Assembly (NCBI RefSeq): GCF_019900845.1
Contig: NZ_CP074570.1
Coordinates: 1,550,001 to 1,614,000, forward strand
Direction of reading: 5' to 3'
DNA from: Paraneptunicella aestuarii
Lineage (GTDB): Bacteria > Pseudomonadota > Gammaproteobacteria > Enterobacterales > Alteromonadaceae
DNA: 64,000 bases
Within the stretch, counting starts at the first letter, position 1. Each line of letters starts with the position of its first letter. Positions 54,803-64,000 of the stretch are shown in pieces. The notes beneath the pieces are model-generated. The model searched no databases. It worked only from the letters and a program-made list of their open reading frames with translations, and was not told the origin of the DNA. A program made the position numbers and the translations under genes.

Positions 54803-57070
54803 TCAAAGTTCAATTTCTTTAAAGAAACGTAAGCCGAATTCGCTTCTGTCATTGCTACGAACAATGCCGACAAAGCCAGTTTGTTGCAGACGGCCCTGGT
54901 CGTATATTTCGTTGAAGATGTTTTCACCATAAAGGGTTAATGACCAATCACCCTCTTCCGACTCATATTTGGCGTTGAAGCCAACCAGAGTACGCGCATC
55001 AATGAGTTCGTTAGGGTTGTAGATAGATTGCCCTTGCATTTCATCACGGTAAGACACATCAGCGCTGAATGTCATGGAACCACCCGTGCTCATATCCATG
55101 TAGTAGGAAGGTGCAATCATTACTGTCCATTCAGGAGTTTGTGCAGGGGAGTCACCCTCGCCAATACCGATTACGCCCGGATCAACCTGAGTGATTTCTG
55201 CGTCGATAAAGCCGATAGCTGAGCGGATTGAGAAGTTGTCTGTCACTTGCCAACTGGCTTCCACTTCAACACCTAAGGCCTCAGATTCACCCGCGTTTTC
55301 TACGATAGTAACGAACCCACCGCCAGATGTTGGATCAGAGAAAGGCAGAGCCAAATCTGTGTATTCTGTGTAGAACATGGCAAGTAACATTGATAGGTCA
55401 TTAGTGACTTTGCCTTTTAAGCCCACTTCGTAGTTAATCGCAGTGGTTTCATTAAAAGATACAAACTGTGCTGAGCCGCCAAACGGACGAGGAGGGAAGC
55501 CGCCAGTTTGATAGCCTTTTTGAACCTGGGCATATACATTCATGCCATTTTCAAACTGATATGCCGCATTTAAGTCCCAAGTGACTTCGCTGAAATCAGC
55601 TTCGACATATTTTCTGCCTGTCACAGGATCGATAAAGTCAAAGGTAGGGAACCAGGCGTTGGCGTCTTTTTTGTCTTTGGAATAGCGAACACCACCGCCA
55701 ATGCTCATGCGATCAGTCAAATCATAAGACATGTTCAAATAAGCTGCGTAGGCATCGGTTTCCTGATTCAAATCGAAATAGCCGTAGCCGCCGAATGAGG
55801 GGGTAACACCGTCGCTCATTAAACCATCTGGCGTATTAAAAGGACTGAATACCCAAGGGCCAGAACGTGTGTAGCCATCTTCGTTGAAATAGTAAAGGCC
55901 AGAGACAAAATCCATGTTGTCGTAAGTGCCGTTAATCTGTAGTTCTAATGAATACTGATCTGCGCCGCCTTCTTCCGGGAATTCTGACAAATGTAATGGT
56001 GATGCATCGTCATCCAAACCGCCTTCGTAATTCGAAGTACGATAGCTACCGATAAACTTGGCAGTAATAGCACTGTTGACAAGCCATTCAGCCGTAATTG
56101 AGGTGCCCCAACCATCATGGCTGTTAGATTCAATTCCTGGCAGTGTTGTGCCCAGATCATCAGGATCTGCCGGGATCATATCCGGTGTTAATAATGGGAA
56201 ATCGCCGTTGAAGATGTCGTTAGGATCTAACGCATTAGTGAATTCAATTGTGTAAGGAGATTGACCTGATTCGTTGTCTACGGCATCGAAAGAAAATATC
56301 AATGAAAAGTCAGGTCTGACATGCCAATTAGCCGCCAGGCGACCACTGAATTCTCTTTCTTCACCGATTTCTTTTTCAGGATTTTCCAGATTAACCGCAT
56401 GACCAACGCCATCACGAGTTTTAAACGAACCGCTGGCGGAGAAACTAAGATTGTCGGTCAGCTCAGCATTAATGTAAATGTCTGCCGCAACACGACTGCG
56501 AGAGCCGGCTTTTAGTGCAACACTGGCAATATGCTCATCGCCAGGCTTTTTGGTGATAACGTTAACCGCACCGCCTAAAGTGTTACGTCCATACAAGGTA
56601 CCTTGTGGGCCACGTAATACCTCTACGCGTTCAATATTTGGCAATGAAAGGTTCGCACCCATTTGGCGACCCAGATAAACCCCATCCAGATACACGCCAA
56701 CACCTGGGTCGGTGGTGATGATATGATCCTGTAAACCTATGCCGCGAATGAAAATAGCTGCGTGGGCTGCGTTACCGACACCGTAGCGGCTAATGTTCAG
56801 GTTTGGAACATATTTGCCTACATCGTCCAGATTGCCAATATTGGCATCATCTATCATGCCTGAGCCGATAGATGTAATGGCTGTTGGTGTCTCAAACAGG
56901 CTTTCGGTACGTTTCCGAGCCGTTACCATGATTTTTTCCAGATCTTCAGCTTCGGCTTTAACTTGAGGTGTTTCTTGAGCTTGAAGTGAGGTAGAAAAGA
57001 AAAGTTGAGTTGCTGCGGCTAACAAGCCTAATTTAAACGTTTTAGTTTTGAATGTGTTGGTTAAATGCAT
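54803..57070 (-). CDS. TonB-dependent outer-membrane receptor
   Basis: A 755-residue receptor. Signal peptide ends near SLQAQ; the TonB-box-like EKIMVTARKR follows at ~45. The plug domain (about 50-170) shows IFIRGIG, GVYLDGVYLGR and VEVLRGPQGTLYGRNTLGGAVNVITKKP; the 22-strand barrel ends FGLRFFKEIEL. It takes up an unknown ligand using TonB energy. No siderophore, vitamin B12 or glycan genes adjoin, and no Fur box was recognised upstream, so the substrate is open. Confidence 0.93.
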   Translation of the reverse strand: MHLTNTFKTKTFKLGLLAAATQLFFSTSLQAQETPQVKAEAEDLEKIMVTARKRTESLFETPTAITSIGSGMIDDANIGNLDDVGKYVPNLNISRYGVGNAAHAAIFIRGIGLQDHIITTDPGVGVYLDGVYLGRQMGANLSLPNIERVEVLRGPQGTLYGRNTLGGAVNVITKKPGDEHIASVALKAGSRSRVAADIYINAELTDNLSFSASGSFKTRDGVGHAVNLENPEKEIGEEREFSGRLAANWHVRPDFSLIFSFDAVDNESGQSPYTIEFTNALDPNDIFNGDFPLLTPDMIPADPDDLGTTLPGIESNSHDGWGTSITAEWLVNSAITAKFIGSYRTSNYEGGLDDDASPLHLSEFPEEGGADQYSLELQINGTYDNMDFVSGLYYFNEDGYTRSGPWVFSPFNTPDGLMSDGVTPSFGGYGYFDLNQETDAYAAYLNMSYDLTDRMSIGGGVRYSKDKKDANAWFPTFDFIDPVTGRKYVEADFSEVTWDLNAAYQFENGMNVYAQVQKGYQTGGFPPRPFGGSAQFVSFNETTAINYEVGLKGKVTNDLSMLLAMFYTEYTDLALPFSDPTSGGGFVTIVENAGESEALGVEVEASWQVTDNFSIRSAIGFIDAEITQVDPGVIGIGEGDSPAQTPEWTVMIAPSYYMDMSTGGSMTFSADVSYRDEMQGQSIYNPNELIDARTLVGFNAKYESEEGDWSLTLYGENIFNEIYDQGRLQQTGFVGIVRSNDRSEFGLRFFKEIEL

Positions 57071-57742: not shown

Positions 57743-57887
57743 TACTTCCTGACAAGTTAGAGCGACTTGCTCTAAAGATTTCCTGGGGTTAATTGCTTGT
57801 TCGTTAAGCCATTGACCCTTGGAAACTTGTAAATCATTCGCTTTACTGTAACTTAAAGAATATTCATATCAGATTTCAATGAGAACA

Positions 57888-58721
57888 ATGGATATTCGCT
57901 TCCTCGCAACGTTTGTTGAAGTTGCCAAGACACGCCATTTTGGTAAAGCCGCAGAAAACCTGTATCTAACTCAATCCGCTATTAGCGCACGTATTAAGTT
58001 ACTGGAAGAATATTTCGGTACATCGTTGTTTTATCGCTACCGCCACGGTATTCGACTGACTTCTGCTGGCGAAAAGCTGCTACCTCATGCTGAAATTATC
58101 AATAAGACACTAAATGACGCTAAAAAAGCGCTCGCCGAGATCGACTTACACTTTTTAGTGGTAGCAGGCACTCCCAATGCGTGGGAATTTTCCATGCAAC
58201 AGTGGCTGTCTGCAATGAAGCAACATTTCCCAGAAGTGTCATTGCGAGCCGAGGTAATGAATAACGATCATCTATCGCGCCAATTACATGAACGTACTAT
58301 TGATCTGGCTTTTACTTTAGAGCCATTAAAGTCAGAAGAATTTGGTACCTCTTTACTGCAAGAATCTAAATTAGCCTTATATTCCACCAAGGAAGAGCTC
58401 TCCGAAGAAGAGTTTGTTTCGTACATCATGATTGATTGGGGAGCCAAGGCTGCAGAATATATGGAAAAGCAGTTTCCTGAAACTCGCCGCTCTCATTTCA
58501 GAACCAGTTCTGTGCAAATCGGTTTGGATTATATGTTGACGAATGGGGGCTGTATTGTTTTGCCTGAAATATTAGCTGCCGACTATGTAGAGCAGAAGAA
58601 AATGCATTTGGTCAAGCCGTTACCCGAATTATCTATCAGGCTGTATTTGAACTACATGCGTGATGTAAAGCAATTGGGTTTATCTGACTATATTACTTTC
58701 TTGAAAAATACTGTCGAATAG
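57888..58721 (+). CDS. LysR-family regulator, HdfR-like
   Basis: A 277-residue LysR regulator. The winged HTH is at the start: FLATFVEVAKTRHFGKAAENLY then SQSAISARIKLLEEYFGTSLF-type sequence, very like E. coli HdfR (TRHFGRAAESLYLTQSA). The effector domain (about 90-270) is divergent. ATG 57888 fits the HdfR N-terminus; ATG 57879 is an alternative. HdfR represses flhDC in E. coli; here the target is unknown. The minus-strand ligase/peptidase cluster converges on it. Confidence 0.88.
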   Translation: MDIRFLATFVEVAKTRHFGKAAENLYLTQSAISARIKLLEEYFGTSLFYRYRHGIRLTSAGEKLLPHAEIINKTLNDAKKALAEIDLHFLVVAGTPNAWEFSMQQWLSAMKQHFPEVSLRAEVMNNDHLSRQLHERTIDLAFTLEPLKSEEFGTSLLQESKLALYSTKEELSEEEFVSYIMIDWGAKAAEYMEKQFPETRRSHFRTSSVQIGLDYMLTNGGCIVLPEILAADYVEQKKMHLVKPLPELSIRLYLNYMRDVKQLGLSDYITFLKNTVE

Positions 58722-58774: not shown

Positions 58775-58800
58775 GAAAAGCAGCCTGAGATCAGGCTGCT
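58775..58800 (-). terminator. Terminator overlapping the end of the FGase-DUF1704 gene
   Basis: AGCAGCCTGA, GA, TCAGGCTGCT (58779-58800) is a perfect 10-bp stem. On the minus strand it is followed by TTTTC (58778-58774). The stem contains the last codons and TGA stop of the minus-strand gene. Confidence 0.8.
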
Positions 58801-60806
58801 GATGGTTTTATCGGTGACGTTTGGATCGTATTGATCAAATAGCTCAAAATCTCTGAGTTAGGTTCCGGTTTTTGTAAAAACGTTGGAATATAGTCAGGTT
58901 TGGGCAGCCAGTTTCTAGCGATTAACTCATTCAACAGCGGCAAGTATTTAAAGCTGGTTTTACCAATAAACAGCGCGGAGATATCCTGCTGATGGTACAA
59001 GCGAACTGCTTCTGCTAACCCTTTCAAATACAAATAGTCTTTTGTGAATCCACCACTACGGTGAACTCGCACCGCCAGCTTAAAGGCGTCTTCCTGAGTC
59101 ATGCCGAATTCTTCCACCAGATAAACACAGGTGTGCTTAAAGTCGTGATGTTTCAGCATTTCTTTTACCGCAATAACGCGTAACGACAGGGTTTTTAAAC
59201 GCTCCAGGCGCAAATTACCGCTCAGGTATTCGTTAAGAATCGCCAAGCCTTCCTGAGTCTCGGTATTGCCGGGTAAACCCAATGAGAAGATTCTAAGTGG
59301 CTGTTGAGCGGCATTTAACGTTGTCGCCATATGCACGCCTAATTCGTGATGGATCAGGGCATTGGCTTCATACTCAGACATATTCACTTGCTTGTTAACG
59401 TATACCGTTCTTTTTCCGTTAGACACCATGGCTTGAGCAACCAGCTTATTGGATGACTCAACGCGGCATTGCATATCCCACTGCTCAGCGGCCTGTTTGA
59501 ACATGCTCAGTAATTGTTCTGTTCCGATGTTTTTCGGTTCCGGTGTCTCGAATTCACAAGCGTGTAACAGGAACAAGGCATTCCGCTCATCGTCCAGTGA
59601 CGGTTCACCGTAATATTTCAGTGAATCGTATACAAACTGCGGTTGTCCTGCATTGACCAGCATATCAATCTTGCTGGACAAAGCGTCAATGACATCACGA
59701 TACATCTGCTGAATAGCGGCATCACGGACTTCATCTACCGGCAAACGATACAGCTGTTCCCTGAATTGATAGGGATCGATTTTTAGCGGGCGATAGATAA
59801 AATTCGGTTCGTAATTGCCTTTTTGTGCGAAAAAGCGTTTTCTTTCCTGCTGAATATTCAGCGGGTTGATGTAATTTAACGTCTCAAGATCAGACGCTAA
59901 ACGATGCAGTTGACGATCCAGTTTCAAAAGTGACGGCTCGATAACATCCGACAACATATCCGACTTTTGAGCACGTAATTTCTTGGTATGGCGACGACTG
60001 AAAAAGGCAGCGGTGTCGGTCAGACACTCTTTAAAGCCAACATTTAATTCATTCAGGATCTTGGGGTAAGGCTCACCAGAACGTTCATCCATGTACACTT
60101 TTTTCAATTCCGTTGGAATGACCAACGTGTTTTGGAAACGTCCGTTTATATGGGAAATCAGATAACCCCGGCCATAAAAAATTTCATTACAACCAGCGTG
60201 TACTTTGTTGTTGGACAACTCAATACGGTTTAATCCACGACGGAAGTGATGAATGACATTGCCCCAACGATCCATATCGATCTGATCAATACCTAAATTG
60301 AAAGTCGGCGTGGTTTGGGCATGACGCTGGTAGTTATAGGAATGCACATCAAAAACCAGGCAAGAACCAAACATGGTTTCAAGAACACTGATTAAGGTGT
60401 CGACAATACGATAAAAGCATTGGTGACGATCAATGCTGACTTTGCGATCCTTGGTGGGCAAAGCCGATTTCCATACCTGCTTACCCCATGCTTTTTTATA
60501 GATACAGGTAGCCAGTGGACGGTTTAAGTCGTACTGGTAGCGTGAATCATTGGCAACAATGGTAATCGGCATGGATTGTATGAATTGATCCGTGAACGGA
60601 TCTTCTTCATACAGGCGTTCGGCCTCATTCAACAGGCAATGCTCAGCGATTTTGTCGGTCATACGATGTCCCGCATGAATCGCTGTACAGATTACTGGTG
60701 CATAGGCTTCAATCTTTAAAGTAAGTGAGCCGTCTTCCAGCTCACATTCAAAGGTTTCTTTCGCCTTTATTTTTTGCCTAAGCGCTTGCTCAGATAATTT
60801 CAGCAT
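58791..60806 (-). CDS. FGase-like/DUF1704 fusion (QEGLA-motif metallopeptidase)
   Basis: A 671-residue cytosolic fusion. Residues ~1-290 resemble N-formylglutamate amidohydrolase (VICTAIHAGHRM, ANDSRYQYDLNRP, SCLVFDVHSY). Residues ~310-650 are DUF1704, annotated in databases as flavohaemoglobin expression-modulating QEGLA motif protein. Its zinc site is readable: H487-E488 and H492 in HELGVH, and E519 in TQEGLAIL. DUF1704 includes the animal tubulin tyrosine carboxypeptidase MATCAP, so C-terminal trimming of a peptide is a reasonable guess. Its start overlaps the upstream GshB-like gene by 17 nt, indicating coupled function. Substrate unknown. Confidence 0.88.
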   Translation of the reverse strand: MLKLSEQALRQKIKAKETFECELEDGSLTLKIEAYAPVICTAIHAGHRMTDKIAEHCLLNEAERLYEEDPFTDQFIQSMPITIVANDSRYQYDLNRPLATCIYKKAWGKQVWKSALPTKDRKVSIDRHQCFYRIVDTLISVLETMFGSCLVFDVHSYNYQRHAQTTPTFNLGIDQIDMDRWGNVIHHFRRGLNRIELSNNKVHAGCNEIFYGRGYLISHINGRFQNTLVIPTELKKVYMDERSGEPYPKILNELNVGFKECLTDTAAFFSRRHTKKLRAQKSDMLSDVIEPSLLKLDRQLHRLASDLETLNYINPLNIQQERKRFFAQKGNYEPNFIYRPLKIDPYQFREQLYRLPVDEVRDAAIQQMYRDVIDALSSKIDMLVNAGQPQFVYDSLKYYGEPSLDDERNALFLLHACEFETPEPKNIGTEQLLSMFKQAAEQWDMQCRVESSNKLVAQAMVSNGKRTVYVNKQVNMSEYEANALIHHELGVHMATTLNAAQQPLRIFSLGLPGNTETQEGLAILNEYLSGNLRLERLKTLSLRVIAVKEMLKHHDFKHTCVYLVEEFGMTQEDAFKLAVRVHRSGGFTKDYLYLKGLAEAVRLYHQQDISALFIGKTSFKYLPLLNELIARNWLPKPDYIPTFLQKPEPNSEILSYLINTIQTSPIKPSAA

Positions 60807-61827
60807 CTTCTATTGCCTTACGGAAAGCATGTTTACGCTCGATCACGCGCTCGCGTGCAGAGACTACATTTTCAATGAAATCAACCACCTGGGTTTGTAG
60901 CTTGACGCGGTTCAAACGGTTAATACGAGTAATGCCACCCGGGCTCAACACGTTAACTTCAATCAGCTTGCCGTTAATGACATCCAACCCGACAAAATAC
61001 AAACCGTCGCGTACCAATTGAGGACCAATGGCACGGCACAGTTCTTTTTCTTCTTTGGTCAACACGTGTTTGACTTCTTTACCACCTGCGTGAATATTCG
61101 AACGAATATCATCGGCAGAAGGCACGCGACGCATAGCACCAATGGGTTCGCCATTGAGCATCAGAATACGAACGTCACCGTTTTCAGCACCTTCAACATA
61201 TTCTTGCAAGATGACGTAGTTGCCGTTCTTCTCGCCACCGATATAGAAATCGAGCAAGGAACGGAAGTTTTGCTTGGCACGTTTTTCTACAACGATAACA
61301 CCCTGACCACCGAACCCGTTTAAGGGTTTCATGATCATCTTTTCTCCGGGTGAATCTTTAAGTACCTGCTCCAGATAATCACGGTTCTTTGATACGTGTG
61401 TGGCAGGGACAAAACGGCTGGCATCACCACTAAATGACGCTGGGTACAGTTTGTTATTGGCTACACGCAGGCCATCAATATCGTTAAAGATAAAGGTGTC
61501 GTTGCGTACTGAGTCTAAAAAGTTCAACGCGATAGTGTCCAGCGGCGGGTTAGCGCGCATAACAATGGCGTCGAAACCTGCTAACGGTAATTTACTGCGT
61601 CGGAATTCTGCTCTTCTGTAGAAGTTAACAATGTTGCTTGGGATTTTCTGAGATTTCTTCAACACATTACAAAATGCATGTGCAACACTGTCTCGAATAG
61701 TCAAACTATGCGGGGTTGTGATCGCAACCGTTAAGCCTCGGCTAGCCGCTTCATGTATTATTCTTAACGTTGTATCTGTTTCAGGAGAAATGTTCTCCCA
61801 TGGGTACATCAAAAAACAAATTTTCAC
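60790..61827 (-). CDS. GshB-like ATP-grasp ligase
   Basis: A 345-residue ATP-grasp enzyme resembling glutathione synthetase. Recognisable parts: an N-terminal domain starting MKICFLMYPW, the VMRANPPLD segment, the ATP-binding IMKPLNGFGGQGVIVVEK loop, and the C-terminal VGLDVINGKLIEVNVLSPGGITRIN metal/ATP site. It likely joins an amino acid to a peptide carboxylate. It is coupled to the FGase-DUF1704 gene and lies apart from gshA, so it is probably not the housekeeping glutathione synthetase. Product unknown. Confidence 0.88.
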   Translation of the reverse strand: MKICFLMYPWENISPETDTTLRIIHEAASRGLTVAITTPHSLTIRDSVAHAFCNVLKKSQKIPSNIVNFYRRAEFRRSKLPLAGFDAIVMRANPPLDTIALNFLDSVRNDTFIFNDIDGLRVANNKLYPASFSGDASRFVPATHVSKNRDYLEQVLKDSPGEKMIMKPLNGFGGQGVIVVEKRAKQNFRSLLDFYIGGEKNGNYVILQEYVEGAENGDVRILMLNGEPIGAMRRVPSADDIRSNIHAGGKEVKHVLTKEEKELCRAIGPQLVRDGLYFVGLDVINGKLIEVNVLSPGGITRINRLNRVKLQTQVVDFIENVVSARERVIERKHAFRKAIEDAEII

Positions 61828-61955
61828 TATAGGTAATCACACTATTTATAAGGGCTGGAAACGCCCTGGGACTTCGTTAGTTGGCGCGATTATGTGGATT
61901 CGCAATTTACCTGTACAACAATGAATATTTATCGTGACGACAAAAAGTGTTGATA

Positions 61956-62786
61956 TTACTGAAATTCTTTTTTGGCATTTTTGCTCATTATTTGTACATA
62001 GCGCGCTGGTAATAAGGTGTGCAGCCAATAGGCAATTTTTGAAACTCGTCCCAAACGCAAATTTGATTGCTTTTTAATCAATGCGGAAATAATTTGTTGA
62101 GCGGCATATTCAGGTGAAAGTTGCTCTCCATTGGTACTTTTTTTCATTGCCCCCGGTGATGAAACCCCATTATTTACCTGTGCCATTAATTCAGGCCGTG
62201 ACTTCACAAACGATGGCGAGACGATGGTGACATGGATACCGTCATCAATGACTTCCGAAGCTAGCGATTGAAAGAAACCTTCCATTGCGTGCTTGCTGGC
62301 ACTATAAGCCGAACGACCGTATAAGGGAGCGAAGCCTGCGACACTGGATATAGCCACAATTTGTCCTTTACGGGCTTTCAGCGACGGCAAGCATAAACGA
62401 GTAATGTCTACGCTCGCGGTGAAGTTCACCGCCATAATGGTGTTAAACAGGCTTTCAGTAGTATCTTCAAATTTACTCATATGAGTGATACCGGCATTGT
62501 TGATCAGGATATCAACGCCACCAAAGTGGGAGGTGACTTGCTCTACCGCTTTTTGCAATGCTTCCTGATTGGTCAGGTCAACGGAAACTGGTAGCAGGTT
62601 GTCGCTTGCGAGCAACCCCTCTACATATAGATCCAGCGCCGCTATTTTGGCTCCCAGCTCTAATAGCTGTTTACCTAATGCTTTACCTAATCCGCCCGCA
62701 CCGCCGGTAATAACCACGACTTTGTTCTTGAATGAGGAGCTATGTGACGAGATAGTAGAAGAACTATTTTGATTGACCATGTTCAA
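61956..62786 (-). CDS. Short-chain dehydrogenase/reductase
   Basis: SDR oxidoreductase of 276 residues. Cofactor motif TGGAGGLG, NNAG, catalytic Ser in ISSVAG and YSASK (Tyr and Lys) are all present. An N-terminal Ser/Asn-rich lead of ~18 residues precedes the Rossmann fold; a start at ATG 62780 would shorten it. The C-terminal tail with hydrophobic WLHTLLPARYV resembles membrane-associated SDRs that act on lipids or retinol-like substrates. It overlaps the MFS gene by 23 nt and precedes the ligase gene by 128 nt. Confidence 0.9.
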   Translation of the reverse strand: MNMVNQNSSSTISSHSSSFKNKVVVITGGAGGLGKALGKQLLELGAKIAALDLYVEGLLASDNLLPVSVDLTNQEALQKAVEQVTSHFGGVDILINNAGITHMSKFEDTTESLFNTIMAVNFTASVDITRLCLPSLKARKGQIVAISSVAGFAPLYGRSAYSASKHAMEGFFQSLASEVIDDGIHVTIVSPSFVKSRPELMAQVNNGVSSPGAMKKSTNGEQLSPEYAAQQIISALIKKQSNLRLGRVSKIAYWLHTLLPARYVQIMSKNAKKEFQ

Positions 62787-64000
62787 AGTTTTCCAAGCGG
62801 CGAATGTTACTCATGGCGACTAAACAGGTGAGGGCGCTAAGTACAATAATCCCGGCGATAATTTGCAATGCAATAAAAGGGGTAAAAGCCTGTGCCAGTA
62901 TTCCAGCACCAATACCACTGGCGGCAGGAATACATTGGCTGATAATGCTATAAAAGCTCATGATGCGACCGCGATGTTCATCAACCGAATAAGCTTGTAA
63001 ACCGGCTACGATAAAACTGATAGCAATGCCGCCGCTAATAGAAGCCAATATTAAAACCAGCACAGACAGGCTTAAATTGTCTTCCTGACTCAAATAACCC
63101 AAGCCTGCGCCTGCCACAGTAATGGCAAGCAGCATATTTAATCCAATGCGCCCTTTGTTTTTCAGCCACATGGCAGACAAGCCACCAACAATCAGGGAAA
63201 AAGCGATCAGGCTGAGATAATTGCCTTGCGCGGTTTCGTTTAATCCCAGCATCTGCTTGGCAATGGTGGGCAAAATCACTTGCATGGGCCCCATCAATAA
63301 ATAGGTAATAGTGGCAAGCAATAGAAAGGGTTTGATGAAATCCGAGCGATGTACAAAAGTCAGGCTGCTTTTTATTTCCTGAACGGCTTTTTCCGCTGGT
63401 TTGCCGTCGAAGTTAAATCTAAGCGGTAACAACAATGAGCTGGAAACGACAAACAATACAGCCGCAACAACAAACACGGTCTGCCAGTCGAAATGAACTT
63501 GTATTTGTTTCAGTATCATGGGGGCGAGGCCGAAGCCTGTCATGACCATCAAATTCAGAGCGATAGTAGCGCCTGTAAGTTTATTGGGTTTGACATAAAA
63601 GGGCAGAGTAGCAAAACGCGCAGGAGCCACAAATGACCAACCCACACCCGAGAAAAAGGCGGCAATAAGCAACAGTGGCTGTTTGGTTTCTTCTGTACTG
63701 TTGAGCGCGATGGATAGCAGAACCAGGCTCACCAGATAACTGTTCTGTGCCGTTAAGATCACTCGTCGTGGAGAATAGCGGTCACAGTAAACGCCAGCAA
63801 ACCAGCCCAAAATCAGCGGTGGGCCAAAGCATAAACCATAGCCAATCCCTGCCAGCGCATGTGAGTTAAACCATTCCAGCGCCAGAAAGATGATGCTGTA
63901 GTTGATGATGTGGCCACCAATAAACGCCAGCAAGCAAGACGCCAGATAAGCCATCAGAGGCAAATTGGATGGCTCGTCTGAGAATTTGTCAGAAGAGCCT
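62764..64000 (-). CDS. MFS transporter (5' end probably outside window)
   Basis: Major facilitator protein with ~12 membrane segments, similar to the MFS_3 (enterobactin exporter EntS-like) group: GWFAGVYCDRYSPRRVIL carries the loop 2-3 motif, and the paired six-helix bundles are separated by a loop near FNFDGKPAEKAVQEIKSS. A TTG at 63963 could start it, but the frame stays open through hydrophilic residues to the window edge with no ATG, so the true start probably lies beyond 64000. May export the product of the neighbouring ligase and SDR genes; this is inference. Confidence 0.85.
   Translation of the reverse strand, partial: GSSDKFSDEPSNLPLMAYLASCLLAFIGGHIINYSIIFLALEWFNSHALAGIGYGLCFGPPLILGWFAGVYCDRYSPRRVILTAQNSYLVSLVLLSIALNSTEETKQPLLLIAAFFSGVGWSFVAPARFATLPFYVKPNKLTGATIALNLMVMTGFGLAPMILKQIQVHFDWQTVFVVAAVLFVVSSSLLLPLRFNFDGKPAEKAVQEIKSSLTFVHRSDFIKPFLLLATITYLLMGPMQVILPTIAKQMLGLNETAQGNYLSLIAFSLIVGGLSAMWLKNKGRIGLNMLLAITVAGAGLGYLSQEDNLSLSVLVLILASISGGIAISFIVAGLQAYSVDEHRGRIMSFYSIISQCIPAASGIGAGILAQAFTPFIALQIIAGIIVLSALTCLVAMSNIRRLENFEHGQSK

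Follow-up and report, generated by a model that had tools for sequence, protein, structure and literature searches.

Two overlapping genes in a 64,000-nucleotide stretch of the Paraneptunicella aestuarii genome (contig NZ_CP074570.1, positions 1,550,001 to 1,614,000; hereafter the window) form a real, conserved and poorly named three-activity unit. One encodes a GshB-like ATP-grasp ligase, and the other a fusion of an N-formylglutamate amidohydrolase-type (FGase) domain with a MATCAP (DUF1704) metallocarboxypeptidase domain (Table 1). Profile matches, conserved catalytic motifs and predicted folds show three enzyme families encoded as one conserved unit, which automatic annotation hides under the names 'glutathione synthase' and 'flavohemoglobin expression-modulating QEGLA motif protein'. 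Besides gammaproteobacteria, the unit occurs in rhizobia and further lineages of the same phylum. We estimate a probability of about 40% that the pair is a writer-eraser module, in which the ligase would join an amino acid and the fused hydrolases would remove or trim the product; for this module we infer a product shared by ligase and hydrolases, glutamate as the amino acid and an osmotic role.

Table 1 Gene pair and surrounding features (window coordinates).
Feature	Position	Strand	Remarks
GshB-like ATP-grasp ligase, NF009110/PRK12458 subfamily	60790..61827	-	345 residues, GTG start
FGase-MATCAP fusion protein	58791..60806	-	671 residues, ATG start; TIGR02421 'QEGLA' 398 bits, cut-off 339
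N-terminal FGase-type hydrolase domain, residues 1-290	59937..60806	-	Profile match and conserved residues
MATCAP (DUF1704) metallocarboxypeptidase domain, residues 323-660	58827..59840	-	Profile match
HELGVH zinc motif (HExxxH), residues 487-492	59331..59348	-	Third ligand E519 at 59250-59252
Overlap of ligase and fusion reading frames	60790..60806	-	17 nucleotides
Candidate shared terminator	58779..58800		9-bp stem, T-rich flanks; consensus match only; between pair and convergent LysR
HdfR-like LysR regulator	57879..58721	+	Convergent on pair
SDR	61956-62786	-	128-nucleotide gap to ligase; overlaps MFS by 23 nucleotides
MFS	Frame extends past window end to ~64020	-	418 residues

Conservation of the pairing

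We surveyed 394 genomes of the order and 369 genomes of the class, and searched the phylum further from the ligase side. MATCAP was found in 80 genomes of the order and the ligase subfamily in 27. Twenty-five MATCAP rows of the order have open frames of at least 600 residues; all 24 that were fetched carry an FGase-type N-domain and an adjoining ligase, and the 25th (in genome G173) has, by coordinates, a ligase at the right distance. Seen from the ligase side, 25 of the 27 genomes have the fusion or the alternative type B form described below, and the two remaining ones (G018, G361) belong to the same genus. For the class, we fetched every MATCAP row with a frame of at least 600 residues plus a sample of the remainder: 16 fetched rows have the FGase-type N-domain and a ligase adjoins 15 of them, the exception being locus L057, whose genome has no subfamily ligase above the cut-off elsewhere. 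Three additional relatives (G001, G004, G034) also have an adjoining ligase.

Taken together, the MATCAP-first surveys place a ligase beside 43 of 44 FGase-type MATCAP loci and beside one of the 52 fetched MATCAPs without an FGase-type domain, that one being a neighbor of a type B set (the 52 exclude L117, a fragment at a contig edge that was retrieved via its ligase; fragmentary or broken MATCAP rows of G063, G365, G380 and G440 are not included in the counts). The phylum search added eight matches over the cut-off in six genomes, with MATCAP adjacent to seven and the eighth at a contig start; there, the subfamily scored at least 461 bits versus at most 241 for other GshB-like proteins, and the lowest subfamily score within the order was 409.5, barely above the cut-off of 408.

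The original prediction had noted a 17-nucleotide overlap of the two reading frames, which we located exactly (Table 1). Since the ATG that yields precisely this overlap recurs at 22 of 29 fused loci inspected, the coupling of the two frames exceeds chance.

The fusion protein as a probable double zinc hydrolase

The FGase match spans residues 37-228 (62.6 bits, cut-off 28.9) and the MATCAP match reaches 336 bits (cut-off 27). All 120 listed relatives (the best 120 of 776) contain both Pfam domains. In the MATCAP domain, the zinc motif H487-E488-LGV-H492 is accompanied by E519 within TQEGLA, and these four residues are invariant in 52 aligned sequences, in agreement with the intact zinc site described initially; their counterparts in human MATCAP lie in HEIGTH and TEEGLA. 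The assignment to MATCAP (DUF1704)/TIGR02421 draws on a profile score over the cut-off, the HExxxH plus Glu zinc site and the predicted fold, and that to FGase (PF05013) on the profile score and the predicted fold. Within the FGase domain, H44, E68, D93, D153 and E233 are invariant and H155 is at least 90% conserved; H44, E68, D153 and H155 are the candidate catalytic positions, and some of the conserved residues would bind zinc. These results suggest that the fusion is probably a double zinc hydrolase, combining an FGase-type amidohydrolase with a MATCAP carboxypeptidase. It differs from an N-formylglutamate amidohydrolase in being fused to MATCAP, and from human MATCAP/TMCP in being bacterial, FGase-fused and ligase-partnered; tubulin is not expected as its substrate.

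The ligase and the choice between glutamate ligation and glutathione synthesis

The ligase shares with GshB the fold and both domains (GSH-S_ATP 189 bits, GSH-S_N 85 bits; all above curated cut-offs). It passes NF009110 (464 bits, cut-off 408) and the broader Pfam RimK domain (69 bits, cut-off 21), and fails the RimK family cut-off of TIGR00768 (73.5 versus 143.4 bits). The two GshB profiles disagree: NF003573 is passed (281 bits, cut-off 272) and TIGR01380 is failed (234 of 299). The window genome has another GshB (G000:C1:1283327, 414 bits). With this second GshB present and the pair kept together in 25 of 25 long MATCAP rows and 25 of 27 ligase genomes of the order, neither finding that the original prediction had named as fatal, a ligase that is the sole housekeeping glutathione synthetase or a pair not conserved across genomes, holds for the window genome.

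Tree analysis revealed that 30 housekeeping GshB rows form a single clade (support 100/100), outside which all 43 pair-type ligases fall. A clade of their own unites the type B ligases (99/94), and type A ligases group with two solo copies (93/99). The substrate-loop motifs follow the same division: SPGG occurs in 42 of 43 pair-type ligases versus 0 of 31 GshB, RSN[IVL]H in 30 of 43 versus 0 of 31, and RGN[IVL]A in 28 of 31 GshB versus 0 of 43 pair-type ligases. The compared motifs sit in what we take to be the loop and strand end that hold the GshB substrate. Four RimK proteins carry FRSNLH or FRANLH, and two RimK sequences with solved structures carry FRSNLH. The RSN-type loop motif found in RimK and in most pair-type ligases suggests that the amino donor of the ligase may be RimK-like, namely glutamate.

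Several observations weigh against the writer-eraser reading. The full RimK-like motif is absent in 13 of 43 ligases, mostly type B ligases of the window's class. At least one gene of the pair is present in 51 genomes; a GshB that passes TIGR01380 accompanies it in 43 of them and is missing from eight: G413 (82% complete), G724 (94%) and, outside the window's class, G783, G807 and G856 (each 99%), G872 (90%), G869 (82%) and G925 (65%). In the last six, no GshB-like match other than the pair ligase reached the cut-off, and a GCS2 ligase is present in all of them (the four scanned are plant-type GshA, with TIGR01436 at 686-862 bits, cut-off 463), so the pair ligase appears there as the obvious candidate for glutathione synthetase and may extend gamma-glutamylcysteine, with the zinc hydrolases dismantling the tripeptide. 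The passed NF003573 cut-off, together with the GshB fold and N-domain, is in line with a general form of this reading, in which the ligase would add glycine or another amino acid to gamma-glutamylcysteine, the fusion would degrade the tripeptide or its conjugates, and the ligase would be the glutathione synthetase in GshB-less lineages.

We regard such a glutathione role as a serious possibility, somewhat less probable than the writer-eraser reading. A GshB that passes TIGR01380 is present besides in most of the 51 genomes, the pair ligase stands in a separate clade with changed substrate-loop motifs, and glutathione synthesis alone would leave the deglutamylase-family partner unexplained. The pair ligases of the six GshB-less genomes themselves carry the RSN and SPGG motifs; two of these genomes are incomplete (65% and 82%), and the search did not extend to glutathione synthetase of the eukaryote type. 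Should the glutathione reading be true, it may account for lineages that complete glutathione without GshB.

Proposed writer-eraser model and published physiology

In the writer-eraser model, the ATP-grasp ligase would spend ATP to attach an amino acid, likeliest glutamate, to the C-terminus of either a small peptide or a protein tail, and the FGase-type amidohydrolase (of M14-carboxypeptidase-like fold) and the MATCAP metallocarboxypeptidase would remove or trim the product. The overlapping frames would coordinate the two activities, by analogy with RimK and RimB, which act jointly on ribosomal protein S6, and the module would probably be induced at low osmolarity. The make-and-trim part of the pathway proposed originally remains the best reading.

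RimK and RimB are described as a writer-eraser pair for glutamate on S6 that also makes free polyglutamate (PMC11957791), and TMCP/MATCAP enzymes as shortening tubulin glutamate chains, with carboxypeptidase/deglutamylase activity reported for human and Tetrahymena relatives (PMC10499314). As in RimK-RimB, an ATP-grasp ligase and a hydrolase are encoded together, and 30 of 43 pair-type ligases share the RSN-type loop; unlike that system, the pair's ligase has a GshB N-domain and its eraser is two zinc hydrolases, FGase and MATCAP, instead of a retropepsin-like aspartic peptidase. The RloA-RloB-RloC osmotic-stress operon also combines an ATP-grasp protein with a peptidase, and in four congeneric genomes RloA-, RloB- and RloC-like genes directly follow the pair (RloA-like after the ligase only in L117, L120, L121 and L122); it differs in its secreted retropepsin RloA and membrane protein RloB, neither of which belongs to the pair, and RloB had no match in the window genome. 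RloA peptidases are required under hypo-osmotic stress in Pseudomonas (PMC12239564).

If the writer-eraser model is true, a zinc-based eraser joins the retropepsin-based ones, bacterial MATCAPs gain a function, and it becomes possible to approach what the tubulin deglutamylase originally acted on. A bolder version, which we consider unlikely, would make the pair a bacterial counterpart of the tubulin tail code: the ligase would write glutamate chains, either on a free peptide that stores glutamate as an osmotic buffer or on the acidic tail of a partner protein, and MATCAP and FGase would erase them in two chemical steps (chain and branch). Deglutamylation by MATCAP would then have arisen long ago in bacteria, and its use on microtubules would be a later development in animals.

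We take COG3930 to be the QEGLA family. Genes corresponding to the pair occur in published gene lists. In Vibrio vulnificus, the consecutively tagged VV2_1203 and VV2_1204, annotated as COG3930 and glutathione synthetase, appear in a clade-2-specific list (PMC3091676), and another study shows them jointly present or absent in two strains from oysters (PMC6667273). Photobacterium damselae has consecutively tagged genes annotated as GshB and QEGLA that were up 38.4- and 27.5-fold at 1% NaCl (PMC10308900); the Photobacterium loci analyzed here are two others. The suggestion that the system is undescribed therefore stands for the searchable literature, whose coverage is incomplete: the ligase-with-hydrolase kind is already known, the combination of MATCAP with FGase was not found described there, and the genes themselves are listed but go unremarked as a system in the passages concerned.

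Locus architectures and phylogeny

Two architectures were distinguished. Type A, the window's type, consists of the ligase followed by the FGase-MATCAP fusion (31 loci, one genome being counted twice, since L025 repeats L018). Type B, found at 21 loci and also represented on Sinorhizobium meliloti pSymB, runs in the order FGase, MATCAP with a different N-domain, ligase, mostly with short gaps or overlaps. Its separate FGase is full in 16 of 21 loci, contig-cut in two and missing at L118; L041 and L121 start too near a contig end to judge, and at L116 and L119 the separate FGase lies 1.5-2 kb distant. Profile comparison equated the type A N-domain with the separate FGase (probability 100) and found the type B N-domain distantly related to that of type A (probability 98.1, E 5e-13); compared directly, the type B N-domain and the separate FGase gave no match (probability 0.2). 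Since the type B N-domain is a remote relative of the type A one, yet lacks the FGase His and Asp motifs as judged by eye, type B seems to keep an active FGase apart and a worn FGase copy on MATCAP.

At the type B loci L041 (1445-2494) and L058 (2934-3980), a second, diverged ligase copy with altered ATP-loop and metal positions stands in tandem with a normal copy, and is perhaps an inactive partner subunit.

The MATCAP tree, built by a quick method, has a branch that sets types A and B, together with nine short FGase-less copies, apart from 43 other FGase-less copies; L057 groups with the nine, at a support of 91 that does not reach the threshold of the tool. The window copy clusters with Oceanospirillum copies in the ligase and MATCAP trees alike, although the window genome belongs to the same family as Planctobacterium (Alteromonadaceae); transfer of the whole pair would be the simplest reading of this position. 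In Planctobacterium marinum, a 2OG-Fe(II) oxygenase gene (L018 11980-12648) overlaps the 3' end of the fusion by 4 nucleotides.

Neighboring genes and alternative partners

The SDR and MFS genes upstream of the pair had been proposed as pathway members, with the MFS protein as a possible exporter. Their overlap was confirmed, whereas the MFS frame does not start at 63963 but continues beyond the window end, and the 'EntS-like' label proved weak (91.5 bits, cut-off 324). If the pair belonged to a natural-product cassette, SDR would modify the product of the ligase and MFS would export it; the shared strand, the 128-nucleotide SDR-ligase gap and the identical order in G001, a genome of the window's genus, would fit. 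Relatives of SDR or MFS were absent from seven of the eight other fused loci first compared, the same-genus locus being the only one with them, and both genes extend a run of other content: a five-gene run (window 61956-64000 on to ~67730; L020 11956-17730) of SBF symporter (Na/bile-acid-type), NAD epimerase, Vgb-lyase/SMP-30-like protein, MFS and SDR, identically ordered in G001. SDR and MFS are the last genes of this neighboring run, and their membership in the pair's pathway is unsupported; the export idea accordingly loses support, and we consider the cassette highly improbable.

Of 31 fused loci, 20 have a LysR related to the convergent regulator in the vicinity of the pair, and at 17 of these it is upstream and divergently oriented, an association only. 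Both Photobacterium loci (DA100, GJ3) are type A with LysR and DUF413 in front, and Vibrio HDW18 has LysR, DUF413 and the fusion with no adjacent ligase. These neighbors raise the possibility of protein-tail modification, in which the ligase would extend one particular protein at its C-terminus and the fusion would remove the residues; the target might be the DUF413 (MaoP-like) protein whose gene precedes the ligase. A DUF413 gene accompanies the pair in 11 of 31 fused loci, in addition to the Photobacterium and Vibrio cases, and many of these DUF413 proteins have acidic tails, judged by eye without an acidity control. However, none lies in the fetched stretch at 20 of 31 fused loci or at any of the 21 type B loci, and the only DUF413 match of the window genome is far from the pair. 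DUF413 beside an HdfR-type LysR, an arrangement also present in E. coli, may be an old neighborhood that the pair joined. We consider a protein-tail modification of this kind rather improbable.

Terminator-like sites number 16 in the region versus 7.5 expected from shuffles. The 128-nucleotide gap 5' of the ligase holds one weak promoter match, which carries little weight because the region total (7) is below that of shuffles (13.8).

A TonB-dependent receptor gene lies at 54803-57070 of the window. A 78%-identical relative directly adjoins the fusion downstream in G001, so that receptor and pair are neighbors in the window's genus.

Beside the type B set of L118 (4147-8282) lie an MscS-family channel gene (1046 residues) and a CorA-cluster gene; CorA genes occur near L086 and L119, and cluster relatives at L117 and L118. 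At five loci (L042, L043, L082, L086, L123), a RimK-like gene is at most some 6 kb away from an FGase-less MATCAP, a raw count with no chance level. At L082 (4874-7578) and L086 (6058-9824), FGase-less MATCAP genes are close to both RimK-like and RimB-like genes, a possible independent link of MATCAP to glutamate ligation.
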